From Cristatella mucedo (Eukaryota > Bryozoa > Phylactolaemata > Cristatellidae), in contig WPIO01000168.1 of NCBI GenBank assembly GCA_009760855.2, positions 303,001 through 367,000 of the forward strand: a stretch of DNA of 64,000 nt. The letters are read 5' to 3'. Positions 967-59,765 of the stretch are shown one piece after another; within the stretch, counting starts at the first letter, position 1; each line of letters starts with the position of its first letter. The notes beneath the pieces were generated by a model. The model did no database searches, had not been told where the DNA came from, and saw only the letters and a program-made list of their open reading frames with translations. Made by a program: the position numbers and the translations under genes.

Positions 967-3112
967 CTGATCTTAATAATAATAATAATAATAATAATTC
1001 ACTTGATAAAGCACCCTCAGAGAACTTAATCTCTCTCTCTAGGCGCTTTACAGTTGCTGTAAAGTGAAATGCAATTGAATGGTAAGTAAAATCATGCTTG
1101 AAAAACAAACGAAATGAATAATATGGTTAGGGGTGACATGCACAGGGTCAGCATGCAAATGTGGTTAGTGGCAGCATGCACAGTGTCAGCACGCATAAGC
1201 ACGTGAAGGACGAATCACAGGGACCCACTAAATGCTGTCCTAAATAGGTGTGTTTTTAGGTTCCTTTTAAATGTGGTCAGGTCAGGGGGTGTTCTGACGC
1301 AGGTCGGGAGGGAGTTCCAGGCTTTGGGAGCATATGAACTAAATGCACGGTCTCCAAAGGATTTAAGGTTTGTATGAGGTATTTCTAGACTGTTGGATTC
1401 CGAGAAGCGGGTGGTACGATGCTTGGCCTGGTGGGGTAGTATATCTGACAGATAGGCTGGAGCCATAGAATGAAGGGACCTAAAAGTGAGTGACAAAACC
1501 TTGAAGTCAATCCGTTGCTTGACTGGTAGCCAGTGCAGGTCGGCGAGAAGTGGAGTAATGTGGCAACTGCGACGCTCACGACAGACAAGCCTAGCTGCAG
1601 AGTTCTGCACCAGCTGCAATCGCCTGATCGCGCATGCTGGTAGGCCAGTAAGCAGTGAGTTGCAGAAGCCGAGACGGGATGTCACGAATGCATGGACCAA
1701 CTTGGACATGGTATCTTTATCTAAACAAGCCCGAATTTTAGCAATGTTATGAAGCTGAAAATAGGCGGATTTGACTGTGGAGCTGATATGGTCGTCTAAC
1801 GAGAGGCCGCTTTGGATTATGACACCTAGATTTCGAGCTGATTCAACTGGAGATATGCTGGCAGAGCCAATTTTGAGAGTCAGCCTTTCCAATCTCTGGA
1901 TCACACTGGGTTTGCCCATAACTAGTAAGTTAGTTTTATCATCGTGAAGTTTTAGAAAATTTGCTGCCATCCATGTGCGGATGTCATCAATGCATGCAGC
2001 TAGCGAGTTTAGAGAATTTGAGGTGCTCGAAGGCTGGGAGGGATCAAAGCAAAGGTACAACTGAGTGTCATCCGCATAGAAGTGAAAGCCTAGATTGTGC
2101 TCGGCAATCACGTCAGCAAGAGGCAGAGTATAAACCGTGAAAAGAACCAGACCTAGCACAGAGCCCTGAGGTACTCCATATTTCAGAGGTACTTCAGATG
2201 ATCTTTGTCCATTCACGTCAATACTCTGGAGTCTCCCACTGAGATAGGACCTGGACCACTGCAGAGCAGTGCCATTGATGCCCAGCCGAGATGACAGGCG
2301 CTCGAGAAGAACTTTGTGATCGATGGTATCAAAAGCTGCCGAACGATCAAGCAAAACAAGCAGAGACACTCTACCCATGTCTGCATTCCTAAGTAGGTCG
2401 CTGTACACCCGAAGCAATGCTGACTCTGTGGAGTGATTAGCTCTAAAGCCAGACTGAAACTTACTAGCAAGGTGTGAGGTTTCGATATACGAGTTCAGCT
2501 GGTCCGCCACGACCCGTTCCAGTGTCTTTGATAGGAATGGTAGAAGGGAAACTGGGCGGTAGTTGCTCAAGTTCTCTTGGTCTAGTGTAGCTTTCTTGAG
2601 AAGTGGCCTTACTACTGCTCTTTTGAAAGGTGCTGGGACATGACCTGAGGGTAATGACATATTAATGATGTTAGTTATGCATGGCAGCAGCAGATCAATG
2701 CAACGTAGGAGCAGGACAGTGGGAATAGGGTCCAGAGGACTTGTTGTCTTCTTTGATTGAGATACGAACTTTAGGACTAGATCACTAGTGACCTGCTTAA
2801 ATGCAGACATTGAGGTGCAGCCAGGAACCGAGGAACAGCATTCTAGTGGGGAGGTTGTCATCGCAGGGATGAATTCCCTGATCTTGTCTATCTTCTGCAC
2901 AAAGAATCGAGAGAAGCGATCGGCTAGATCATCGCAAGGATCATCAGGTAAGGAGCTAATCTGGGAACGGTTGAGGAGATGGTTTATTGTCGACATCAGC
3001 ATTTTTGGATTGTGCATCTGTGATTCAACAATGTTTTTGTAAAAAACTAGACTTAGCCTTTGCTAGGATCGATTGGTACGACCTACAGTAGTCTTCGTAT
3101 GCCTTCATATGC
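967..3112 (-). mobile_element. LINE-A, longest copy, with 600-codon RT ORF
   Basis: The 3' tail is (AAT)n at 975-998 as seen on the plus strand. An uninterrupted ORF (3017 to 1215, 600 codons) covers the reverse transcriptase and the C-terminal region. Visible motifs are [27 protein letters not shown], a palm aspartate motif ending [16 protein letters not shown] and [10 protein letters not shown], in the order expected for L2/CR1-type LINEs. Upstream of the ORF the reading continues as YCRSYQSILAKAKSSF but needs a 1-nt shift at a run of six T near 3040-3050. No apurinic-type endonuclease domain is present, so the copy is 5'-truncated and cannot be autonomous. The 3' UTR and stem-loop tail lie at 967-1214. 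Confidence 0.9.
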
Positions 3113-14557: not shown

Positions 14558-17500
14558 ATGGCGCAACGTAAGTTCAAGCAGCGATCCGGAGAACAGCCTA
14601 TGTCGACATATAATGTATTGCCTGTTGTGGTTAGCGTTTGACTTTAGAAATTTGGAAGCGTTTTGTTTTGCTTGATCATGATGTATTTCTTGCTGATAGT
14701 GGTAATGGCTTCTTTCTTCGATACCGGCACTGTTAAAATGGCGCTTCCCGGTGCCACCACGTTCTAACGTCTTTGATTAACTGCTTAAGACCTCGCTATA
14801 CCCGTTTATCATTGCGTTCATTTTACTGTGTGGTGACTTTGATGAACCCTGCTGGCTCTAACGTGAGTGATTCAGCAGCAGATGGATGTTCTTGGCGAGT
14901 TGTCCCGTACCTGCTGCGTAGGTACCGTATGAAAAATGATTTGAATATCGATACGCTAAGGCTGGCTTCCAAAGCTTGTACCAAATCAACGCAACTTGTT
15001 TTTTATTGTGTTAACGTGGCATTAGAAATCGACCCGAGACGGGTTTTCGGCGATTGAGCTCTCGATAAATGCCTAGCGATGATTGCTAGAATGTCTTGCT
15101 GGGAAACCTGATTAATCGGGTGCAGTTTTTCAAAATTGATCAGTCTGTGTAGCATGCATATAAATAAGCAAAGGTAGCACGCCCTAGCATTACTCGATTA
15201 TGCATGTTCTCTTTGTATGAACTGCCCTCCTTGTTGTAGAGTATGGAGGTTATGGCCAGGCATCAGGCAACAGCAGTGGGTAAGTTACAGCTATTCTACT
15301 GCTATGTTACTGAGCTGTCGAAGCTTAAATATTGCTATCGACTGATATCGGATTATCTCTCCACTTGACATTTAAATGGGTCAAACGATTAGAAATTTAC
15401 TCGATCTGTGTGCATTATATCACTCGATGTCCTTTTCAGTCTATGTAGTAAAGTGTATATTTAAAAATCGCTGGTTGTTAAGACATATTGTGCTCAGTTT
15501 TCTTCACAGTATCGTTACTGTCGTTGTACGTAATGGTTTTTTCCATTTGTTCATATCCAATCAAATGAGCTTTTTAAAGTTGCATTAACAAATGTTGAAC
15601 GTTCTTATTCGTGCTTTCTTTTTAGCTCGTACGATGCTTATAGCGGAGGTGGATATGGAGGAGGCAACAGTGCTGGAGGAGGTTACTCGCAGACTGGCTA
15701 TGGGCAGGGTCAGGTGAGTGTAGATCTAATTGCTCAACTATTGTACCTGGAGTTGTCCCTTTTATGGATGCATAAAAGAGAGCAAGTAAGGCTTTGTAGT
15801 GGTGTCTGAGCCTTTTGGGGAACTCTTAGAGAAACTGTTAGTTGCCTAAAACAGCTGCAGAATGTAATGTCTTCTTTAGGGCGGTTCTTCTACGTACAGC
15901 AGTGGTAATGCAGGAGGAGGCAGCACGTACGACTCGAACAGTTATGGACAACGTTCCTCTCAACCTCAGAGCTACAGAGGTATGTGTGCTTTCAGAGGAT
16001 TGTTGTGGCTGTATAGAGGTTTGCATTTGTGTAAACGTTGATCCGGCGGTACCTCGGAGCTTTTGGCTGGCTCGTGCTGCCATGCAGCTGAGTAGACTGT
16101 ATGCTATGATCTTTTAGGTGTATGCATTCGTTTGCTAACTACTGTGGTGTGCATTACAGGCCAAGGCTCTGATGTGAGAGGTGGCTATGGACAGTCGAGT
16201 GAACCACAATCTTCGAACAGTGGTTATAGCGCTAGCACTGGTGCTGGTGGTTCCGGCAATGCAGCTGGCGGAAGCTCTGGATCTAGCTATGGACAGTCTG
16301 GTGCATCTAGCTATGCTGATAGGAACAATGATAGGGGCTCCAGCTATGGAGGCGAGCGCTCATCGTCGGGCTACGGTGGGGATCGTTCGGCCAGTTCCTA
16401 TGGAGGCGAGCGCTCGACAACAAGCTATGGCAGTGAACGGCCATCTGGTGGCTATAGTGGTGATCGTTCGTCCGGCTATAGTGGTGATCGCTCTGGCTCC
16501 GACTCGTATGGAGGAAGTCGTGGTGGTGATGGAGGTGAAAGGTCATCCGGCTATGGAGGTAGAAGTGACAGTGGTTACAGTGATCAGGGTAAGCTGTGCA
16601 GATGCTGGCTGCTCATGATTTGCTTCCAAGTAGCTTTGCTTTGTCATAATAATTGGTGCTGCTCTGTTATAGGAGGCAGAGGAGGAGGAGGAGGCAGCTA
16701 TGGGTATGTTTTTTTGCTGCTGCTTTTATGTTATCTTGATTTAGTGGTTGTTAAAATTGTGAGTTGGGTGGTATAGTATGTGCTGTATGTGTTCTGCTAG
16801 AGTGGGGATATTGGGATGTTGAGGAAATTGGTTGCTACGATAAGCTAAGCTACCTTGGTCCATAACTGGTTGAAGCACCTCGGGATCAATGGGTGTGACA
16901 TCGGCATTTAATATATATATATATATATATATAAGCGTTATGTCGCACACCAACCCCACTAAAAAATATTTTTATTGGTTGTATTGAGATGCTTCATCTT
17001 TGAATGTAAGACTACTACCTCGAAGGTACTGCTTTATGGTTTGTCGTGTCCGATCATTTCTATTGGTATTTACCATATTTTATCAGCAGATTTAATGGAT
17101 GATATCTGCACAAAAATGGGTCATTTAGTTGATCATGTCAAGTGGTTTTTATTAGTAAGCTGATACAGTGCTGGCCAGTGACAGCTTGGTGCAGGTTGGT
17201 TCTACCGGTCTAAATATTAACTTGATAACTAGTACGATATACTAGTACATGTGTCGTGTTTATTGGCAGTTCTTACCTCAACTCTCATGGGCGTATTCCG
17301 TTTTTGGGCTCCTGTTTATTAGTTGCATAATGATCCAGAAGCATTAGCCGGGCAGTACAGGGACAGGCCTGTACGTACGTTTGTTGCTCTGGTCAGCAAT
17401 AACTGGTCTATTGTGTGCTTAGGTGGCATCGAGGTTGGTTGGCGGTTTATATTCTAAGCGAGGCACCATTTATTGAAAGTCGCTTTCTGGAAAGTGTTTA

Positions 17501-23999: not shown

Positions 24000-24659
24000 T
24001 ACAGTGTCATTAGAAGTAAATAAGTAAAAGTCGTCTGGTTAGGCACTCTCGTTTATATACCGGCTGAATATTCTTTGGGGCCATCACCTGTGAGTCGCCT
24101 TTCGGTGGGTAGTAAATTAAAAGCTTGCTTCGTGACTGTAGCCTACGATCTTTAAGTTATCAATAACAGCAACAAGGTAACTGCCGGGGCAGAGTATGCA
24201 TCGTGCCTTGACATGATTGCATAAGCAAGTGCTTCCATCTGCTAACCATATGGCTAATCCATACAAGTCGATAAAATGTCGGCACGTCTAAATTTTTGCT
24301 CAAAAAATTGAGGAGCTATTCATTTCCTGTCAATTGTAGCTTAAACATAACCAATAATTCGTTGCACCCATCGAATCCACCAAGTACAACCACCGGAGTG
24401 TTACTCTGGTAGCTGGCGGTACGTCGTCTGCTTGCCAATAAAAACCTAAGTTGAGCTTGTTGACTGCATCGGCCACAGGATGCAGCCCCTCGTTTATCGT
24501 GGTTAAATCAAAACCATGACAAGTGAACTTTGAGAAGTAAGATTTTTCATAAATCGAGTATTTTCTTGAGCATTGGAATCTGTCCGCGACCATATCAATG
24601 CGCCATTGAACATTATCACAGACCTGGACATGAAATACTACTCTTAAGGTGTTACATTT
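24000..24659. other. FET 3' flank, no gene seen
   Basis: No exon, retroposon or notable repeat is recognised. A minus-strand 87-codon open frame (24593-24330) has no family resemblance and is not annotated as coding. Confidence 0.45.
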
Positions 24660-24790
24660 AATTCATTTGCATAGCGCCCTAAGAGAACTCGATCGCTATT
24701 CAGGTGCTTCACGTATGCCAAGGGGCTCGAGCACACGGCCTCGGCAAGACCTTGAGTGGGGCGAGCACATTCACCACTGAACTAAACCAG
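24660..24790 (-). mobile_element. SINE2 copy
   Basis: On the minus strand: a tRNA-like head starting near 'gctggtttagttcagtggt', a B-box segment ending near 'gtgctcgagcccc', then 'gcatacgtgaagc' and the LINE-A-like tail (agttctcttagggcgctatg) ending in 'aaatgaattaaa'. Moderately diverged. Confidence 0.75.
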
Positions 24791-25054
24791 CACTCGTATT
24801 ACCCAATATATTAGACAAAATAAAAGGACGATTTACTCTTGCAAAGGCTGATTGATAATCGCAGGCCGTTTTGTTGTGTTAAGTTATGAGTGAAGGCCTA
24901 GAGATAAGCTGCAGAAACAGCTCTAGATACGCTGGCTCCAAGCTAGTCAGCATTCCTGAGAAACGTGCACTTGAAGTAATTGGAGAGTCGGGTCAAAATT
25001 CTGACTAGTTTCTGTTCCTGCGCTTATTGCCAGTTTGACTGGCCTGCCAATAAA

Positions 25055-33227: not shown

Positions 33228-33360
33228 CTTCTGCTGGTTTGGCCCAGTGGTTAAGGTGCTCGCACCGACCGTGGTCTGACCGAGGTCGAGGGCTCAAGCC
33301 CCGTGGCATATGTGAAGCGCATGAATCGAGATTAAGTTCTCTCGAGGCGCCTCGATAGAA
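33228..33360 (+). mobile_element. SINE2 copy with good A- and B-boxes
   Basis: The head 'tggcccagtggttaaggtgc' matches the tRNA A-box type (TGGCNNAGTGG). The B-box region reads 'gggctcaagcccc'. The body 'gcatatgtgaagcgcatg' is followed by the LINE-A-like 'agattaagttctct' tail. It is the clearest plus-strand copy of the family. Confidence 0.82.
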
Positions 33361-46300: not shown

Positions 46301-49300
46301 TATTTGTTTAGGGTATCTTTTCAAGACAAACGTGTTAGAAATGAGATGGGAAGTTGTGACAACTTGCACATAAAAGAAAATTGATTATGCAAACCATGGC
46401 TAACCGGAATGTAAATCGGAAGTAAGTTATCTGCAAACAACAAATTTACCGATCTCTGCATCCTATGCGACTGGTATCTCAACTTGTTGAACCTTGGTAG
46501 ATCTCGGTAAATTCCATGAAGCTTGTTGAGGTGCATTCTTGTGACTTTTAAAAGCTTCATTTTGATTCTAGCTTTTTACCTTGTAAATTCTATAAATCGG
46601 CCAATATCATGGTTAAATTTTAAAATGTGAGTTCAGCTCTGCCTGTATAATGTTATTTCTAGAATTATTTCTGATTTCGGCCTGATAGGTTTTGCTACAC
46701 GTGCCATCAAACATCCTGGAGCTTTATTTCCTCCAATCGTGGACATGTGTAGCAAAACCTTTCCTGCCACTAGCTGTCTGCTGATTTCATCTACCCTGCT
46801 TTTGCTGCACGCAGGACGGCTCTGCAGCGGCACTGACCGCCGGTGCCTCGGGCGGCTGCTTGACAGCTGGCCAGATCGAGGCGATTCGCGAGGCAGCCAT
46901 TGTCTTGTGCGACTCACTGCCGTTCATGGAGCCCAAGCCTCTGAACCTCAAGAAGCCGGTCAATCGAAACATCGAGGTACGTATGGTAGTGCAGGCCTGG
47001 GCGCACTTGGGCGTGCTTGGGCACGCCTGGGCACAGCATAGCTGAACTCGGTGGACTCGGACGATAGAGCTGGCTGCCACGCCTGCTACTGCATGCACGG
47101 GTCTGTTGTCTGTTTTTACTGCATGAAAGTATGCATATGCCACAAGTGCTTTAGGAGCATGAAGCTGCGATGCTTTACACATGTTTGGATAAGAAAAAAT
47201 AAAGTGATATCAACAAACCCTCTGTGGTAGTGTGTGCTTTGCTGGAGAGTTTTCTGTCGCCTACCCAAAACCAAAATGGCTTCTGAGCACACATTAGGTG
47301 GCCAACAGACTTTATCTCAAGAAAACGAAGAGAAAGTGAGGAGCATAACGGAATCAGCTGGGCAGTCGAGGAAGTGAGTGACGTAGTGGCAGTAGCAACT
47401 CAGGTCGGCTTAAAAGTGTGCATCGAAGTCGACAGCAGGAGAGAGTAGATGTCGTTGCTTAAGAATTGTGGAAGTGCGTTCCACAGAGGCTCGGACTTTG
47501 CAAAAAGCAAAAGCTTCTTGTTTTTTAAGTGAAAGAACGCAGCAGCAGCTGATCAATCAGCTGATGCTGCCGATTGATTGATGATGTAATGTATCTCCGT
47601 TAGTAACTCCACAAAGTCAAAAAGACCATGTGGGTGTTACGAAGGAGAGCTTTGTATAGCCCACTCACAGCCTAAGCGGCTTTCAGTACGCATTCGGTAG
47701 CCAACAGAATTCGTCTCACGCTACAAAGAGAAAGTGGGAAGCATAGCAGAGTCAGGAGAGCAGTTGAGGTAGTGATTAGTATAGAAGTAGCAGTTCAGGA
47801 CCGCTGAAAAGGATGTGCCACAGTCGGCAGTAGAAGAGTATTTTTCGTTGCGTAAGAATTGTGGAAGCGAGTTCCACAGCCTAGAACCTGCAGAGCTACA
47901 GCTTCTGTCGCCAACTGTCTTTAAGCGGAGGAATGGGACAGCTAATTTATTGTCCACACAGGACCTGAGGGCGCGAACAGGCTGAAACTGATGCAGCAGT
48001 TCAGCTAGGTACGAAGGAACCAAGCCGTGGCGGGCCTTGTGGGTCAGCGTAAGAACTTTGCTCTGTATTCTTTGCTCAACCGGCAACCATTCTAGCTCTT
48101 TCAGCAAAGGAGACACGTGCTCAAACCGCTGGGACTTGAAGACCAGCCTTGCAGCCATATTCATAGTTCGCTGTAGTGGCATAATAGCTTTCTTTGGTAG
48201 CCCAGCCAAAAGGGAATTACAATAATCAAGCCGAGACAGGACTAAAGAGCTAGTTAAATTTTTTACAAGCCACTGTGGGAGACAGCTCCTAAGCTTGGAT
48301 AGGGATTGGATGTGATGGCTAGCTGTAGAGGCAGTCTTCTGAATGAAGCTTTTGAAACTGAGGCAGCTGTCGAACACGACACCTAGATTACGAGCACGTG
48401 GTGAAGGTCGCACAATAGCATCACCTATTAGAACAGCAAAGCCTTTTAATCCAGCCACACGCTTAGGGTGTCCTATGAGAAGCAGTTCTGTTTTATCGTC
48501 ATTTAATTTCAGGAAGTTTTCCGACATCCAGGATCGAATATCGGCAAGGCAAGCATTCGGTTTCTCAGTTGCTGCAGCAGATTCCGACGGTCTAAATGAC
48601 AAATACAACTGAGTATCGTCAGCATAGAAGTGATATCCTATTCCATGGGCCTTAATCACTTTTCCCAGAGGTTGCGTATAAATAGAGAACATCAAGGGAC
48701 CAAGTACAGACCCTTGAGGGACTCCACAGGTGACCCTTGTCATGTCTGAGACCTGACCCCCACACGACACGGATTGAAAACGATCAGACTAGTAGGATTT
48801 AAACCACGCCAGTGCTTCGTCTGCCAGACCGATCGTTGTTCTCAGTCGTTCAAGCAGAATTTCGTGATCAACGGTGTCGAAGGCAGCAGACAGATCTAGC
48901 TGAGCTAGGGCAGTGACATTCCCGTCGTCGTTGCCAAGTAGAATGTCATTGTTAACATGGAGGAGAGCAGTTTCAGTAGAGTGCTGCCTCTTGAAACCTG
49001 ATTGAAATGTTTCTGACATTCCCTTATTTTCAATATGTTCAACTAGCTGCTTAGCAACAATTTTTTCAAGAATCTTTGATAAGAACGGAAGAAGGGAAAC
49101 TGGACGATAGTTTGCTAGGACCTCTGTGTTCATTGATCATCAATCAATCATCAATTGCTGATCATGCAATCAATCAATTGCATCATTCAATTTGATTGCA
49201 TTTTCAATCAATTGCAATCAATTATTGATGCAATCAATTTTGATCGAAGTTGCATTGATGATCAATCTTGATCATGATTGATTGATCAATTTGATGACCA

Positions 49301-52300
49301 TCGATCATCAAATGATTGATTTTCAATTGATCAGCAGCAGCTGATTTGATCATCAATTGATCAATGATAAGCTGATTGACGATCAATCAATCAATCATCA
49401 GATCAATCAGCTGCTGATTGATCTGCTGATTGATTGTCCATAGAGGTCCACCCGAGGGCAGGGGCGGGGTGCCCCCCCCCCCCGTCTGAAACTGGTGCTG
49501 CACTGCAGCTGGAGGTATGAAGGAGCCAAGCCTTAGTAGGCCTTTCGGATTAGAGTAAGAACTTTGCTCTCCATCGGTTGATTGAAAATGAGCCACAAGC
49601 AGCTTCTTCAGCAAAGAAGAGACTTGGCCGAAATTCTAGGATTTATTAATGAACCCCGCATGCAGCCATTTTCATCACTAGCTGCAGAGGCTTAATGGCT
49701 TTGCTTGGTATCCCAGTCATTAATTACAGTAGTTCAATCAAGACCAAACGGTCAAGCTAGTAATGCAATAGAGAGGCTTCGATCTCTCGTCCTAGGGGTA
49801 TAGAGACGGTGCTCGCATTCTACGATCTAGGGGTCGCTGGTTCGAGTCCTGCGGCAGGCAATTCTATATGGCCCACTGCAAGTGAGAGTGATAGCCGCTA
49901 TAGTGGCTCTTCTGCCTGCTGTGTACATAGGCATTTCTGCTATACATGTGCCTTGGTGAATTCGGGCGACCTTTGCTTTTACTTTACCGTATTATGTGTG
50001 CCGTAGAGCCATAGTGGCTTTTTACGTAACCCAGCCAAAACTGAATTGCAGTATCCTGTCTAGGCTGTACCAGGCAGCTAGTCTGACCTTTAGCCTGCCA
50101 CTCTGGAGGCAATCTCTAACCTTTGATCCCGGCGATCCCTGACCTCTCATAGGGAACAAACGTGACGGCAAGCTGTGGAGGTGGTATACTTAATGAGACA
50201 TTTCAGGGTCAGTCGCCAAACAGATCACCAACATTGCCAGCATTCGATGGTAGTTGCTCTATGTTAGTACCTCCCGTTAGAAAGACAAAGTCTCCCAGTA
50301 CAGCCTGTACGTTTAGGAAGGACGACGTGTCTCACTACTGCCAGTACGTTTAGAAGAACTAAGTCTCTCAGTTCAGTCTGTATGGTTAGGAAGAGCTCAA
50401 CCGGGAGTTACATCTGCTCCCTCCTGCTTTCGATGCTGGTGTCGTTGGTGTCGTCGAATCATTGCTTGAGCAGCACGTCTGTCGCCCTGGAACTCGAGCG
50501 AGCAGGCAACGCGTGTATTTTGCTCACAGCAAGCCAGCCTTCTGTCTTCCTCACCCCAGCATTAGCACCAGAATCGTGTAGGGCGATAGGGCAGAGTTAT
50601 GATAAATAAAAAAATATAATTCATTTGTGTAGCGCCCCAAGAGAACTTAATGTCTATATAGTCGCTTCACATATGCCTCGGGGGTCGAGCTCACGACCTC
50701 AGCCAGACCTTGGTCGGAGCGAGCACCTTAACTGCTGGACCAAACCAGCTCAAACGATGACATGTAGCGCCACGTGCTCTGACCACCTCCGACGCCTTGG
50801 ACTGAAAGCTGCCCATATATCGCCTACGAGCTACTTTCTCGTTTCTCGGTGGATTCCAAGTCACATGCTCCCTGGCATGCCAAGTCACGTGCCACTTTTG
50901 TCACGTGACTTGGCATGCCAGAGAGCGTGCTCGCCAAAAAGTGCATGGTTTGAAAACCAAGTCGAAAGGGTATCGTGTACCAGCCAGGCAAAAAAAGCGC
51001 CATCCGAAGCTAGAACCGAGCTGCTTATACATTGCCGTACCTCCTCCTCCTCCAGAGAGCTGCTGCCGAGCCTTTGCCACGCCCCTGCAGGTTGCACAGC
51101 AGGCATAGCTTGGGTGGAGAGGAGGAGCCTACTTGAAAGGCGGCTGCAGCCGTTAGAGGGGGAGGGGGCATCGTGTGGTTTTGTTTACTCACCCCAGCCT
51201 ACGACAGTGCCGTGCCTAAATGTTGTCGTCTGCCGGTACTAGGCTGGAGGGCTCTCTCACGATCACCGACTAGCCAATCGGAACGCAGCTAGGCGTTAGC
51301 AACAACGCTAACGAATCAGAGCGCAGCATTCCTGAACAGCAGACGACAGAAGCAGATGAACGTCTGTGGGAGGGCAGTTTCCTCCTGGTTCGGTGAGTGG
51401 TCGGCGTTGCTCGTCGGCTGGCGTTTTGTGCAGTGCGAGACAGCAACCAGACTACACATAGCACGCCGACGGCCTCTGGTGAGCCCTTGCTTGTGTAAGC
51501 TCAAAATAGCATGCTTCGAACCCTCGAGGATTGCTTCCGGGAAGTGGCTAGCAATACGGTTGTTGACTCGCAGTGTTGGAGAAGGGGATTTTTGGTGCAT
51601 TTGGTAAGCCGTGATGGCACACTAGGTGAGGCGGTTGGTTTTCACTATCTCAGTCCCAAAGTATCGGTCCCGAGGTCGTGAGTTCGATTCCTGCGGTGGG
51701 CGATCCTTTATCGCCACTGCAAACAGTGGTGATAGCCGTAAAGACTCTTCTGTTGCTATGCAGAAAGAGGCTGTTAAAAGCAGTTGGACTTTTTTATGCT
51801 GTATAAATCTTACTTCCCAGTGCTCAGGCGGTGCTACGAAATAAGATTCTTCGGAAATGCAAATGATTCGGTAGCCATAAATCCCTCCAGATACCGCTGC
51901 CATGCGGCGCCTGGCTCCACTGACCCCTGGGCAAAGTAAAAAAATCTTTCAGCCGATTTAACAGCCTCATTTTTCTATAGCGGCAGAAGAGCCTTAACGG
52001 CTGTCACCACTGCTTGCAGTTGGCAATAAAGGATCACTCACTGCAGGACTCGAACACAAAGTTGTTGTCAAAGGTTAGCAGCCACACCAGGGGTACCTAA
52101 TGTATGGGGTACCTTTGGGATCCGTGCTTGGTCCACTACTTTTTGACAATTCATACTCTTCCTCATCCCTAGGTAATTGCCAAACTAAATCGAGGATTTC
52201 ATTTTTATGCAGATGACAAACAGCTCCACAAGTGCTTTGATCCTTTCCTGCCGTCCAATGAGTCGAACTTTCTTAATTTCAAGGCAACATAGACAATACT

Positions 52301-54575: not shown

Positions 54576-55338
54576 GTTCCTCTTTATTCCTCTTGTTTCC
54601 ACTTCTTCTCTGTTTAGCTAAGGGTTGAGCATTTTGGGTTTAGTATTTAACCGTTTTGGGGTTTATGGCTTATCGCTTACTGCTTAGATTGTGTATTTTT
54701 TGTTTTTGAGTCTTTGGCATTGGTCTTGAGGTTTATAGTTTAGTATTTGGGTATTACAGTGGAACTCTAAATGGAAAAGATAACTAAATACGTGTTTATT
54801 TAACGTAAATATGGGTGAGGTAATATGAGTGATTTAACGTAAATATGGGTGAAATATGCAGGTGACCGTGTTGACCTTGTTGAACAGCCTGCTATCAGCA
54901 CTGTGCCCTTAGCAGATCTGTATGAACAAATGCCGACGCCATAGATATTAGCTATGATAATAATAATAATAATAATTCACTTGATAAAACGCCCTCAGAG
55001 AACTTAATCTCTCTCTAGGTGCTTTACATTTGCTGTAAAGTGAAATGCAATTGAAAGGTAGGTAAAATCATGGTTGAAAAAACAAACGAAATGAATAATA
55101 TGGTTAGGGGTGACATGCACAGGGTCGGCATGCAAATGTGGTTAGTGGCAGCATGCACAGTGTCAGCACGCATAAGCACATGAAGGACGAATCACAGGGA
55201 CCCACTGAATGCTGTCCTAAATAGGTGATGGTTGGGATACAGCACCAGCAGTCAGAGGAGCGGAGTCTCTTAGTTAAGCCGCGCCTCTATCGCGTCTTCC
55301 CGAGCTATTTATCGGTGACAACGAGCACCGAGTCGTCT

Positions 55339-58321: not shown

Positions 58322-58358
<37 letters not shown>

Positions 58359-58537
58359 TACTTGATAAAGCGCCCTCAGAGAACTTAATCTCTTTCTAGG
58401 CGCTTTACATTTGCTGCAATGGGAAATGCAATTAAATGGTAAGTAAAATCATGCTTGAAAAACAAACAAAATGAATAACGTGGTAAGGGGTGATATGCAC
58501 AGGGTCAGCATGCAAATGTGGTTAGTGGAGAATATAA
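58322..58537 (-). mobile_element. LINE-A 3' end, truncated at a SINE2
   Basis: (AAT)n at 58324-58357, intact stem-loop and part of the 3' UTR. At 'gtggttagtgg' the homology switches directly to SINE2. Confidence 0.85.
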
Positions 58538-58680
58538 ATATAATTCATTTGTATAGCTCTCAAGAGAACTTAATCTCTATTCAGGTGTTTTACATATGCT
58601 TCGGGGGCTCGAGCCCGCGACCTCAGCCACACAGACCTTGGCCGGGGCGAGCGCCTTAACCGCTGGACCAATCCAGCTCG
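58538..58680 (-). mobile_element. SINE2 copy abutting LINE-A
   Basis: On the minus strand: 'gagctggattggtccagcgg', 'ttaaggcgctcgcc', B-box region 'gcgggctcgagcccc', 'gaagcatatgtaaaac', and the tail 'agagattaagttctcttgag' ending 'acaaatgaattatattta'. Confidence 0.85.
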
Positions 58681-58835
58681 GCATTAATCTACAGCCCTGG
58701 TAGCTGTATTTCTGAGATCACCCTACCCAGTTTTTTAGTCCATGTGATGTAACACAAGGTCGGCGGTAGGTTTCTATTGTTGTGAGCTAATCGCTTGGTT
58801 ATAAAGCATGCGGTTTTTCACAAGGGCTATCAATC

Positions 58836-59765
58836 ATAATAATAATAATAATGTACTTGATAAAGCGCCCTCAGAGAACTTAATCTCGGATTAAATTCGG
58901 AATCGCAATCGGTTCGCAATCCGTTCGCAATCATCATAGCCTCTCCCTTTTGCAATAAACCGACCTCCTTCTGGCGACCTCTAAAATTGTTTTTAGAGGA
59001 GTTTTCTGACTGGATGAGGTTTGTACGACGTATTGGTAAACAGTTAGATTCCGAAAAGCAGGTGGTACGATGCTTGGCCTGGTGGGGGAGTAGATCTGAG
59101 AGGTAGGCTGGAACCAAGGAATGAAGTGACCTAAAAGCATGCTCAATGACAACAAGCATAACATGGTTATAGGTGACATGCTCTGAAATATGGGGTACCT
59201 CAGGGCTCCGTGCTAGGTCCAGTTCTTTTCATGGTTTATACTCTCCCTCTTGCTGATGTGATTGCCAAGCACAATCTAGGCTTTCACTTCTATGCAGATG
59301 ACACTCAGTTGTACCTTTGCTTTGATCCCTACCAGCCTTCGAGCACCTCAAATTCTCTCTGGTGAGTTGGTGACTGGTGAGTTGGTTTTTATCGTCATTC
59401 AATTTATGAAATGATGCTGCCATCCATCTGCAGATACCATCAATACATGCAGCAAGGGAGTTGTGAGAAGTCCACGTGTTGGAGGGGCTGACAGGGATCA
59501 AAGCACAACGTCACTGCTGAGTGTAATCTGCATACAAGTGAAGCACGTATGGCATCCCGTCTCGGCTGTGCCTTGCTTTAAGGAAGCGATTGACCTATAG
59601 TTTGAAAGGTGGCCGATCCCTGTTGTGATGCACACCTTATCAAAACACGCAGCCATGCATTGCATCACCTAACCATTTGATCGCGCTTCCTTTGCTGCAA
59701 ATGTAAAGTGCCTAGACAGAGATTTGAGCTCTCCGAGGGCATTATAGCAAATATATTATATTCAC
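58836..59765. mobile_element. Patchwork of LINE-A fragments in alternating orientation
   Basis: 58836-58890 is a tail (-), 59010-59183 is a C-terminal coding and UTR piece (-), 59187-59360 is the RT core (+, GVPQGSVLG type through [14 protein letters not shown]), 59375-59550 is the same RT region in the opposite orientation (-), and 59650-59765 is a 3' end (+). 58891-59009 is unrelated sequence. Confidence 0.75.

Follow-up and report, generated by a model that had tools for sequence, protein, structure and literature searches.

Two retroelement copies, one of the LINE family LINE-A and one of the SINE family SINE2, lie directly side by side at positions 58322–58680 of a 64,000-nucleotide stretch of the bryozoan Cristatella mucedo genome (hereafter the window; contig WPIO01000168.1, positions 303,001 to 367,000 of the forward strand). 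LINE/SINE partnerships through shared tails are well known in L2/CR1 systems, and the RUDI/V-SINE and MetaSINE families of molluscs are widespread invertebrate SINEs with box A/B heads. The original prediction, made from the window, was that SINE2 shares its 3′ stem-loop tail with LINE-A as part of such a partnership. Our genome-wide searches covered one assembly of 572 Mb and 688 contigs, which includes the window. Genome copies, folding, conservation in diverged copies and, most tellingly, recurrent fusions of the two elements support a partnership. SINE2 is probably a non-autonomous retroposon that relies for its copying on the reverse transcriptase of LINE-A, or on that of a close relative with the same tail, and template switching probably fused the two elements.

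LINE-A is a genuine non-LTR retrotransposon. An open frame of 615 amino acids, in the copy that ends at position 974, matches the reverse transcriptase family RVT_1 (Table 1) and, among PDB entries, the chains of L1 ORF2p at about 1e-12; the distance from its stop to the (ATT)n end is about 0.23 kb. Its motifs suggest that LINE-A may be L2-like. At 26 places in the window, the score for the LINE-A tail exceeds that for the SINE2 tail. The window also contains a Gly/Ser/Tyr-rich open frame (16096–16776) with GYGGDRS-type repeats that resembles an exon of an RNA-binding protein, and a search of the 64-kb window against Rfam returned no match.

The LINE-A tail has the two-part stem that had been described: read on the minus strand, the outer arms TAAAGCGCC and GGCGCTTTA enclose the inner arms AGAGA and TCTCT and the loop TTAAGT, and (ATT)n follows. 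The SINE2 end indeed contains the same segment, with a core of about 40 nt in common and the same predicted hairpin. In blast searches restricted to the window, the SINE2 end matched the adjoining LINE-A tail with 84% identity over 38 nt (E = 3e-6) and the LINE-A tail at 54966–55034 with 80% identity over 70 columns (E = 2e-9). When folded, the LINE-A tail from the window and a hand-typed, consensus-like SINE2 tail each formed a long outer stem and, within it, an inner stem of 5 bp (AGAGA/TCTCT) closed by a UUAAGU loop. Both reached about −22.4 kcal/mol, whereas shuffles averaged close to −9 (z-scores of −5.3 and −5.7; 0 of 200 shuffles were as low for either tail). The differences between the two tails had been said often to keep pairing; compensatory changes do exist elsewhere, but the outer stem of the copy at 58538 is damaged, with ACACC opposite a shortened GAGAGC. 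A literature search for the loop sequence returned no related paper.

SINE2 is a genuine SINE of about 155 bp, and the family is large and well bounded. A 38-nt pattern from its head, allowing at most one mismatch, occurs at 2,454 places genome-wide, and its reversed control occurs at none. The printed genome copies have a common 5′ end (GCCGAGCTGG), a common 3′ end and mostly unrelated flanks; behind GCCGAGCTGG come a box A/B pair, the hairpin tail and then A/T-rich repeats. All four copies originally named in the window are present (Table 1), the one in the pair matching at 58535–58680. The RNA polymerase III boxes A and B of SINE2 agree, at their best placement, with 20 of 23 positions of the consensus boxes, a score equalled by 8 of 2,000 shuffles. 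Because ARAGORN found no tRNA in the SINE2 head and Rfam gave no tRNA match at E values up to 5 in four SINE2 loci, the label 'tRNA-like', under which the head had been introduced, rests on these promoter boxes.

SINE2 end units are doubled in 7 of the 60 printed copies (L124, L127, L149, L157, L160, L161 and L171), as would happen if reverse transcription slipped when it began, and the terminal repeats read ATTATT in some copies and TATTTAT in others. Flank matches of at least 7 nt were found in 6 of 73 copies (1.29 in shuffles, with a maximum of 5 in 200 shuffles) and matches of at least 6 nt in 12 of 73 (4.65 in shuffles, maximum 10). Matches are few, and target duplications are therefore short or absent in most copies. 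Two pairs of copies with matching flanks, L130/L131 and L007/L075, are likely duplications that carried SINE2 or the fusion with them. L107 and L195 contain what is likely a further SINE family, whose box B is of the GGTTCGAATC type (CTCACTAGGTAAGGCGGTTGC...GAGGTCGTGGGTTCGAATC), and similar downstream letters appear in L101 and L142; the repeat with this box B in L107 contains a LINE-A insertion between AGGTAAG copies.

The hairpin is conserved beyond its surroundings in diverged copies. Compared with a single young LINE-A copy as the reference, it was better conserved than the adjoining 3′ untranslated region (UTR) in all 10 LINE-A copies with a UTR identity below 85% (means of 0.86 versus 0.76), and 48 younger LINE-A copies showed no difference between hairpin and 3′ UTR (0.95 each). 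Compensatory substitutions had been proposed as a check on the stem. We counted pairs in 67 of 84 LINE-type tails, omitting 12 in or near SINE2 fusions or neighbours and 5 with length changes or poor ends. Against shuffles, which related sequences may exceed even without structure, 89.9% of cells were paired versus 88.9% (1 of 500 shuffles as high), 12 cells had changed on both sides versus 6.2 (2 of 500) and the covariation score was reached by 2 of 500. The number of pairs changed on both sides was not unusual (33 of 500), nor was the number of further pair types (221 of 500), and two versions of the slid controls had 8 pairs changed on both sides versus 5 in the true frame. The SINE2 counts used 109 tails, namely 108 of 126 (9 fusions and 9 poor tails were omitted) and the window copy at 33289. 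Under the same caveat, 88.1% of cells were paired versus 87.8% (17 of 500), 6 cells had changed on both sides versus 2.5 (12 of 500), the covariation score was reached by 1 of 500 shuffles and the number of pairs changed on both sides by 68 of 500; one outer-stem pair is unpaired in 106 of the 109 tails. The double changes in LINE-A fall mostly at two CpG pairs (CpG observed/expected, 0.79), and because CpG decay on either arm readily yields double changes, the covariation is confounded. An inner-stem change from G–C to U–A, seen in two window copies, is free of this objection. Compensatory substitutions are thus present, but the covariation is modest and mixed across measures, with most changes at CpG positions; it is suggestive, not significant.

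Table 1. Positions of the LINE-A, SINE2 and LINE-B features in the window
Feature	Position	Strand	Basis
(ATT)n end, LINE-A part of the fused element	58322..58357	minus	read from sequence
LINE-A tail hairpin, intact: 9–11 bp outer stem, 5-bp inner stem, 6-nt loop	58366..58407	minus	sequence, folding (MFE −22.4, z −5.3), pair counts
Last ~176 nt of LINE-A, 5′ end = CCACTAACC, young subfamily	58358..58528	minus	97.7% identical to plain copies
Putative fusion junction, T then CCACTAACC	58528..58529	minus	LINE-A nucleotide shared with L002–L007 and L079; diverged copy L074 joined there too
SINE2 with its own tail and a box A/B head of the young subfamily of L010/L011	58529..58682	minus	locus comparison
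Hairpin region of the SINE2 tail, here with a damaged outer stem	58551..58594	minus	sequence, alignment row
LINE-A copy reduced to last ~38 nt and (ATT)n	58832..58887	minus	window blast, 5′-end survey
LINE-A reverse transcriptase, C-terminal part, open 615 aa	1215..3062	minus	ORF, RVT_1 2.2e-28
3′ UTR and hairpin tail, same LINE-A copy as the 615-aa frame	974..1171	minus	window blast
SINE2 solo copy	50612..50751	minus	window blast, locus reading
SINE2 solo copy, 3′ end lost	33233..33346	plus	window blast, locus reading
SINE2 solo copy, old	24653..24791	minus	window blast, locus reading
LINE-B reverse transcriptase (46% identity with that of LINE-A across 316 aa)	47721..48788	minus	copies end in (ACATT)n

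The tails do not fix the exact partner of SINE2, which may be LINE-A or a closely related LINE that bears this tail. Distally, young LINE-A reads CTTTATCAAGTGCATTATT and SINE2 reads CTATACAAATGAATTAT, and tails ending in CTATACAAATGTATTATT, which are closer than young LINE-A to the distal tail of SINE2, exist in the genome. Gapped identity to SINE2 over the whole tail is 89% for the best LINE-A tail and 83% for the median young LINE-A; shuffled strings average 64%, although the best of 300 reaches 84%, above that median. The group of LINEs with this hairpin seems to include a lineage that is nearer than LINE-A to the end of SINE2. One possible explanation is that such a relative, LINE-C, ending in GCGCTATACAAATGTATTATTATT, is the partner, and that LINE-A fuses with SINE2 only because its enzyme also uses the hairpin. 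We consider this a serious possibility, although we lean against it. A pattern search gave 1,137 places and, among the 100 matches listed, 16 have the ending GTATTATTATT in place of GAATTATTATT, which would suit a LINE tail and is one base from SINE2 distally. Of these 16 we read L070, which proved to be a fragment of a LINE-type tail with CTATAAAAATGTATTATT. It reappears in the search for the exact SINE2-type 3′ end, which gave 20 places: of the 5 that we read, 4 are SINE2 copies and the fifth is L070, whose tail differs slightly from that end. The tails of L013 and L024 (GCATCTGTAAAG..CTA[CT]ACAAA) are also nearer SINE2 (GCATATG) than LINE-A (GCAAATG). In L013, a reverse transcriptase fragment with 42.5% identity to LINE-A residues 517–603 lies about 245 bp upstream of the hairpin tail, and the two likely belong to one element, although this is not proven. 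Against LINE-C, 54 of the 63 one-mismatch places among the 100 matches listed read, by their letters only, like SINE2 with the ATTATT end that LINE-A also has; identity to SINE2 within the first 42 nt reaches 93% in the best LINE-A tails; and the fusions observed carry LINE-A 3′ ends, although the patterns that we searched with used LINE-A letters and were blind to others.

A second LINE in the window, LINE-B, was ruled out as the partner of SINE2, as its copies end in (ACATT)n without the shared core. LINE-B is very abundant and uniform, with more than 100 places in the genome in addition to 47721–48788, 92–95% identity in 113 other scored matches and many open frames; 114 matches were scored among 135,915 first-look candidates. 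Two LINE lineages with unlike tails are, or recently were, active side by side.

The adjacency that had been noted is present, with a junction at 58528/58529. It most likely does not represent two neighbouring insertions, but a single fused element, of a kind that recurs elsewhere, in which SINE2 is followed directly by the final 176 nt of LINE-A with its (ATT)n. When the 359-bp pair was used as a query, plain LINE-A copies matched up to base 207, and several loci matched the whole pair. At these loci, the 5′ end of SINE2 is intact or nearly so, the letters upstream differ from those that lie upstream in LINE-A itself, and the two parts meet between T and CCACTAACC. The fused element bears a hairpin tail from each family, with that of young LINE-A outermost.

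Fusions in the same orientation at one LINE-A nucleotide are found at eight loci: the window itself (L001), L002–L006, L007 (which has a tandem copy, L075) and L079, whose SINE head is of another subfamily and has lost its own tail. A diverged fusion at the same LINE-A place, L074, brings the number to nine. L182 is joined 3 nt further up LINE-A, and fusions with other junctions are L154, L114, L183, L188 and L184, the last of these after an A/T-rich stretch. The whole genome was searched with three patterns, each requiring AATTAT no more than 12 nt before a LINE-A 17-mer. They gave 27 places, and SINE2 fusions account for 11 of these, or for 9 of 25 once the window and the tandem duplicate are set aside; for comparison, of the 33 AATTAT sites in the window, 2 belong to SINE2 ends, including one in the fusion itself. 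The first pattern yielded 10 places, comprising 6 fusions (5 without the tandem duplicate), L182 and 3 plain LINE-A copies. Fusions made up 3 of 14 places for the second pattern (L183 and L188, joined directly before CAGCAAATG, and L184) and 1 of 3 for the third (L154), and the other places found with these two were LINE-A after other sequence or unbroken LINE-A.

In 80 SINE2 copies sampled from the first 100 places listed of the 2,454, a LINE-A 3′ piece directly abutted SINE2 in the same orientation in 2 (L114 and L154) and in the opposite orientation in none; same-orientation pieces lay about 40–65 nt away in 2 further copies (L159 and L118), and an opposite one lay about 70 nt away in L165. 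In a set of 30 SINE2 loci, the window copy was the only fusion, with none among the 29 other young copies. At L014, L016 and L017, same-orientation LINE-A lies behind SINE2 and also in front of it; that is, SINE2 sits inside LINE-A. We rejected L107 as a fusion: its LINE-A tail, about 16 nt behind a shortened SINE2, is flanked by two AGGTAAG copies within a different repeat and so inserted separately, which shows that single fusions can mislead.

In 94 chains, SINE2 tails among them, the 5′ ends of LINE-A are scattered from 38 to 1,250 nt from the 3′ end; plain copies do not pile up at the junction nucleotide, and no general hot spot of 5′ truncation at CCACTAACC was seen. LINE-A starts at CCACTAACC or within 2 nt of it in L021, L086 and L094, the first two without SINE2. 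In L094, LINE-A begins at CCACTAACC right behind TGCCACTACTATGCCACTACATG, a short repeat that resembles its own first bases.

The fusions do not look like one clonal family, as their halves are nearest to plain or solo copies and fall in differing subfamilies. The LINE part was closer to a plain LINE-A than to another independent fusion at all nine loci, by 0.5 to 5 points, with a near tie at L002 (0.948 versus 0.943). The plain reference set was partly picked by likeness to the fusions L001 and L003, and plain copies outnumber fusions, so that a plain nearest relative is weaker evidence than the differing subfamilies: the LINE parts fall in different LINE-A subfamilies, and the halves come from different subfamilies. 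Of the eight SINE heads tested (that of L079 was too short), all were nearest to solo SINE2 copies, the tandem copy aside, with L074 a near tie. Either LINE-A has a preferred nucleotide at which fusion happens repeatedly, or a single junction has been kept while both halves were replaced. Under the latter alternative, the fusions with the 176-nt junction would descend from one founder, and homologous template switching with the LINE-A and SINE2 RNAs now present would since have exchanged both halves bit by bit. We regard this as possible but doubtful; it would account for an identical junction nucleotide in differing subfamily backgrounds, but the bases on the SINE side of the junction vary like ordinary SINE2 ends (ATATTCT, ATTTTT, TTTAT and others), as expected for separate fusions.

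It is also conceivable that the pair at 58322–58680 reflects two independent insertions, in which a 5′-truncated LINE-A landed at the end of an existing SINE2. LINE-A is dense in the window, nested LINE-A/SINE2 pairs occur (L100, L145, L165 and L076–L078), and L107 carries a LINE-A close to a SINE2 end that is clearly a separate insertion. This reading is nevertheless unlikely, as the same LINE-A nucleotide abuts SINE2 3′ ends at eight loci and plain LINE-A 5′ ends do not accumulate there; the excess of same-orientation over opposite pieces abutting SINE2 in the 80 copies points the same way but is too small to decide alone. That the tail likeness is due to chance, or to insertion of SINE2 into LINE-A, is highly improbable: some SINE2 copies do lie inside LINE-A (L025, in addition to L100, L145, L014, L016 and L017), but most printed copies have unrelated flanks and carry the tail at the same internal place, and both the common core and the fold go beyond what shuffles give.

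The fusions are best explained by a switch of template from one RNA to the other in the course of a single insertion, which would lend independent support to the partnership. SINE2 RNA would be made by RNA polymerase III from its box A/B-type promoter, and the shared, conserved structure suggests that its 3′ hairpin mimics that of the LINE and is bound by the LINE enzyme. Reverse transcription would begin on the short 3′ repeats, where slippage could leave the doubled end units seen in the copies, and insertion would yield short target duplications or none, as the flanks weakly indicate. The window pair could then stem from one insertion in which the enzyme started on LINE-A RNA and, after about 176 nt, moved over to SINE2 RNA. 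A more tentative extension, which we think unlikely, is that SINE2 repeatedly gains a second tail from current LINE-A, with the template switch favouring certain LINE-A nucleotides (the one 176 nt from the end and perhaps also CAGCAAATG).

As a LINE/SINE partnership through a shared tail, this system is of a known kind. The closest parallels are the following. The HAmo SINE of carps and HAmoL2, an L2-clade LINE, have a 3′ stem-loop of about 40 nt in common and short repeated end units, and template switching was proposed for the origin of the SINE (PMC2653535). In that system, the loop is GGAUA and the repeats are TAAATG, whereas here the stem has two parts, the loop is UUAAGU and the repeats are (ATT)n or of the AAATGAATTAT type; moreover, SINE2/LINE-A fusions are seen here at several loci. 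The 'stringent' LINEs UnaL2 (whose partner is UnaSINE1) and zebrafish ZfL2 encode enzymes that recognize their own 3′ hairpin, and the partner SINE has such a tail; there, function was tested by retrotransposition and binding assays (PMC4176376), whereas SINE2 and LINE-A are known from sequence. In passerines, TguSINE1/PittSINE carry the hairpin tail of the LINE CR1, and template switching was proposed to have produced a new element (PMC5729268). Those SINEs gained a new head; SINE2 instead gains a further LINE tail, apparently more than once. Searches of open-licence literature for composite or chimeric SINEs turned up general cases and nothing on this LINE/SINE pair, which does not prove that no such paper exists.

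What the locus adds to the known kind is that the pair itself may be evidence that one enzyme handled both RNAs. It contributes a LINE/SINE pair with a two-part hairpin and a natural series of SINE/LINE fusions in one genome, which could be used to study the gain or renewal of SINE tails and the points at which a LINE enzyme tends to leave its template. If the fixed junction reflects pausing of the enzyme, this would be directly testable in vitro. Repeated tail gain, if true, would be an ongoing way for a SINE to renew its match to a moving partner, with several ages of the process visible in one genome.
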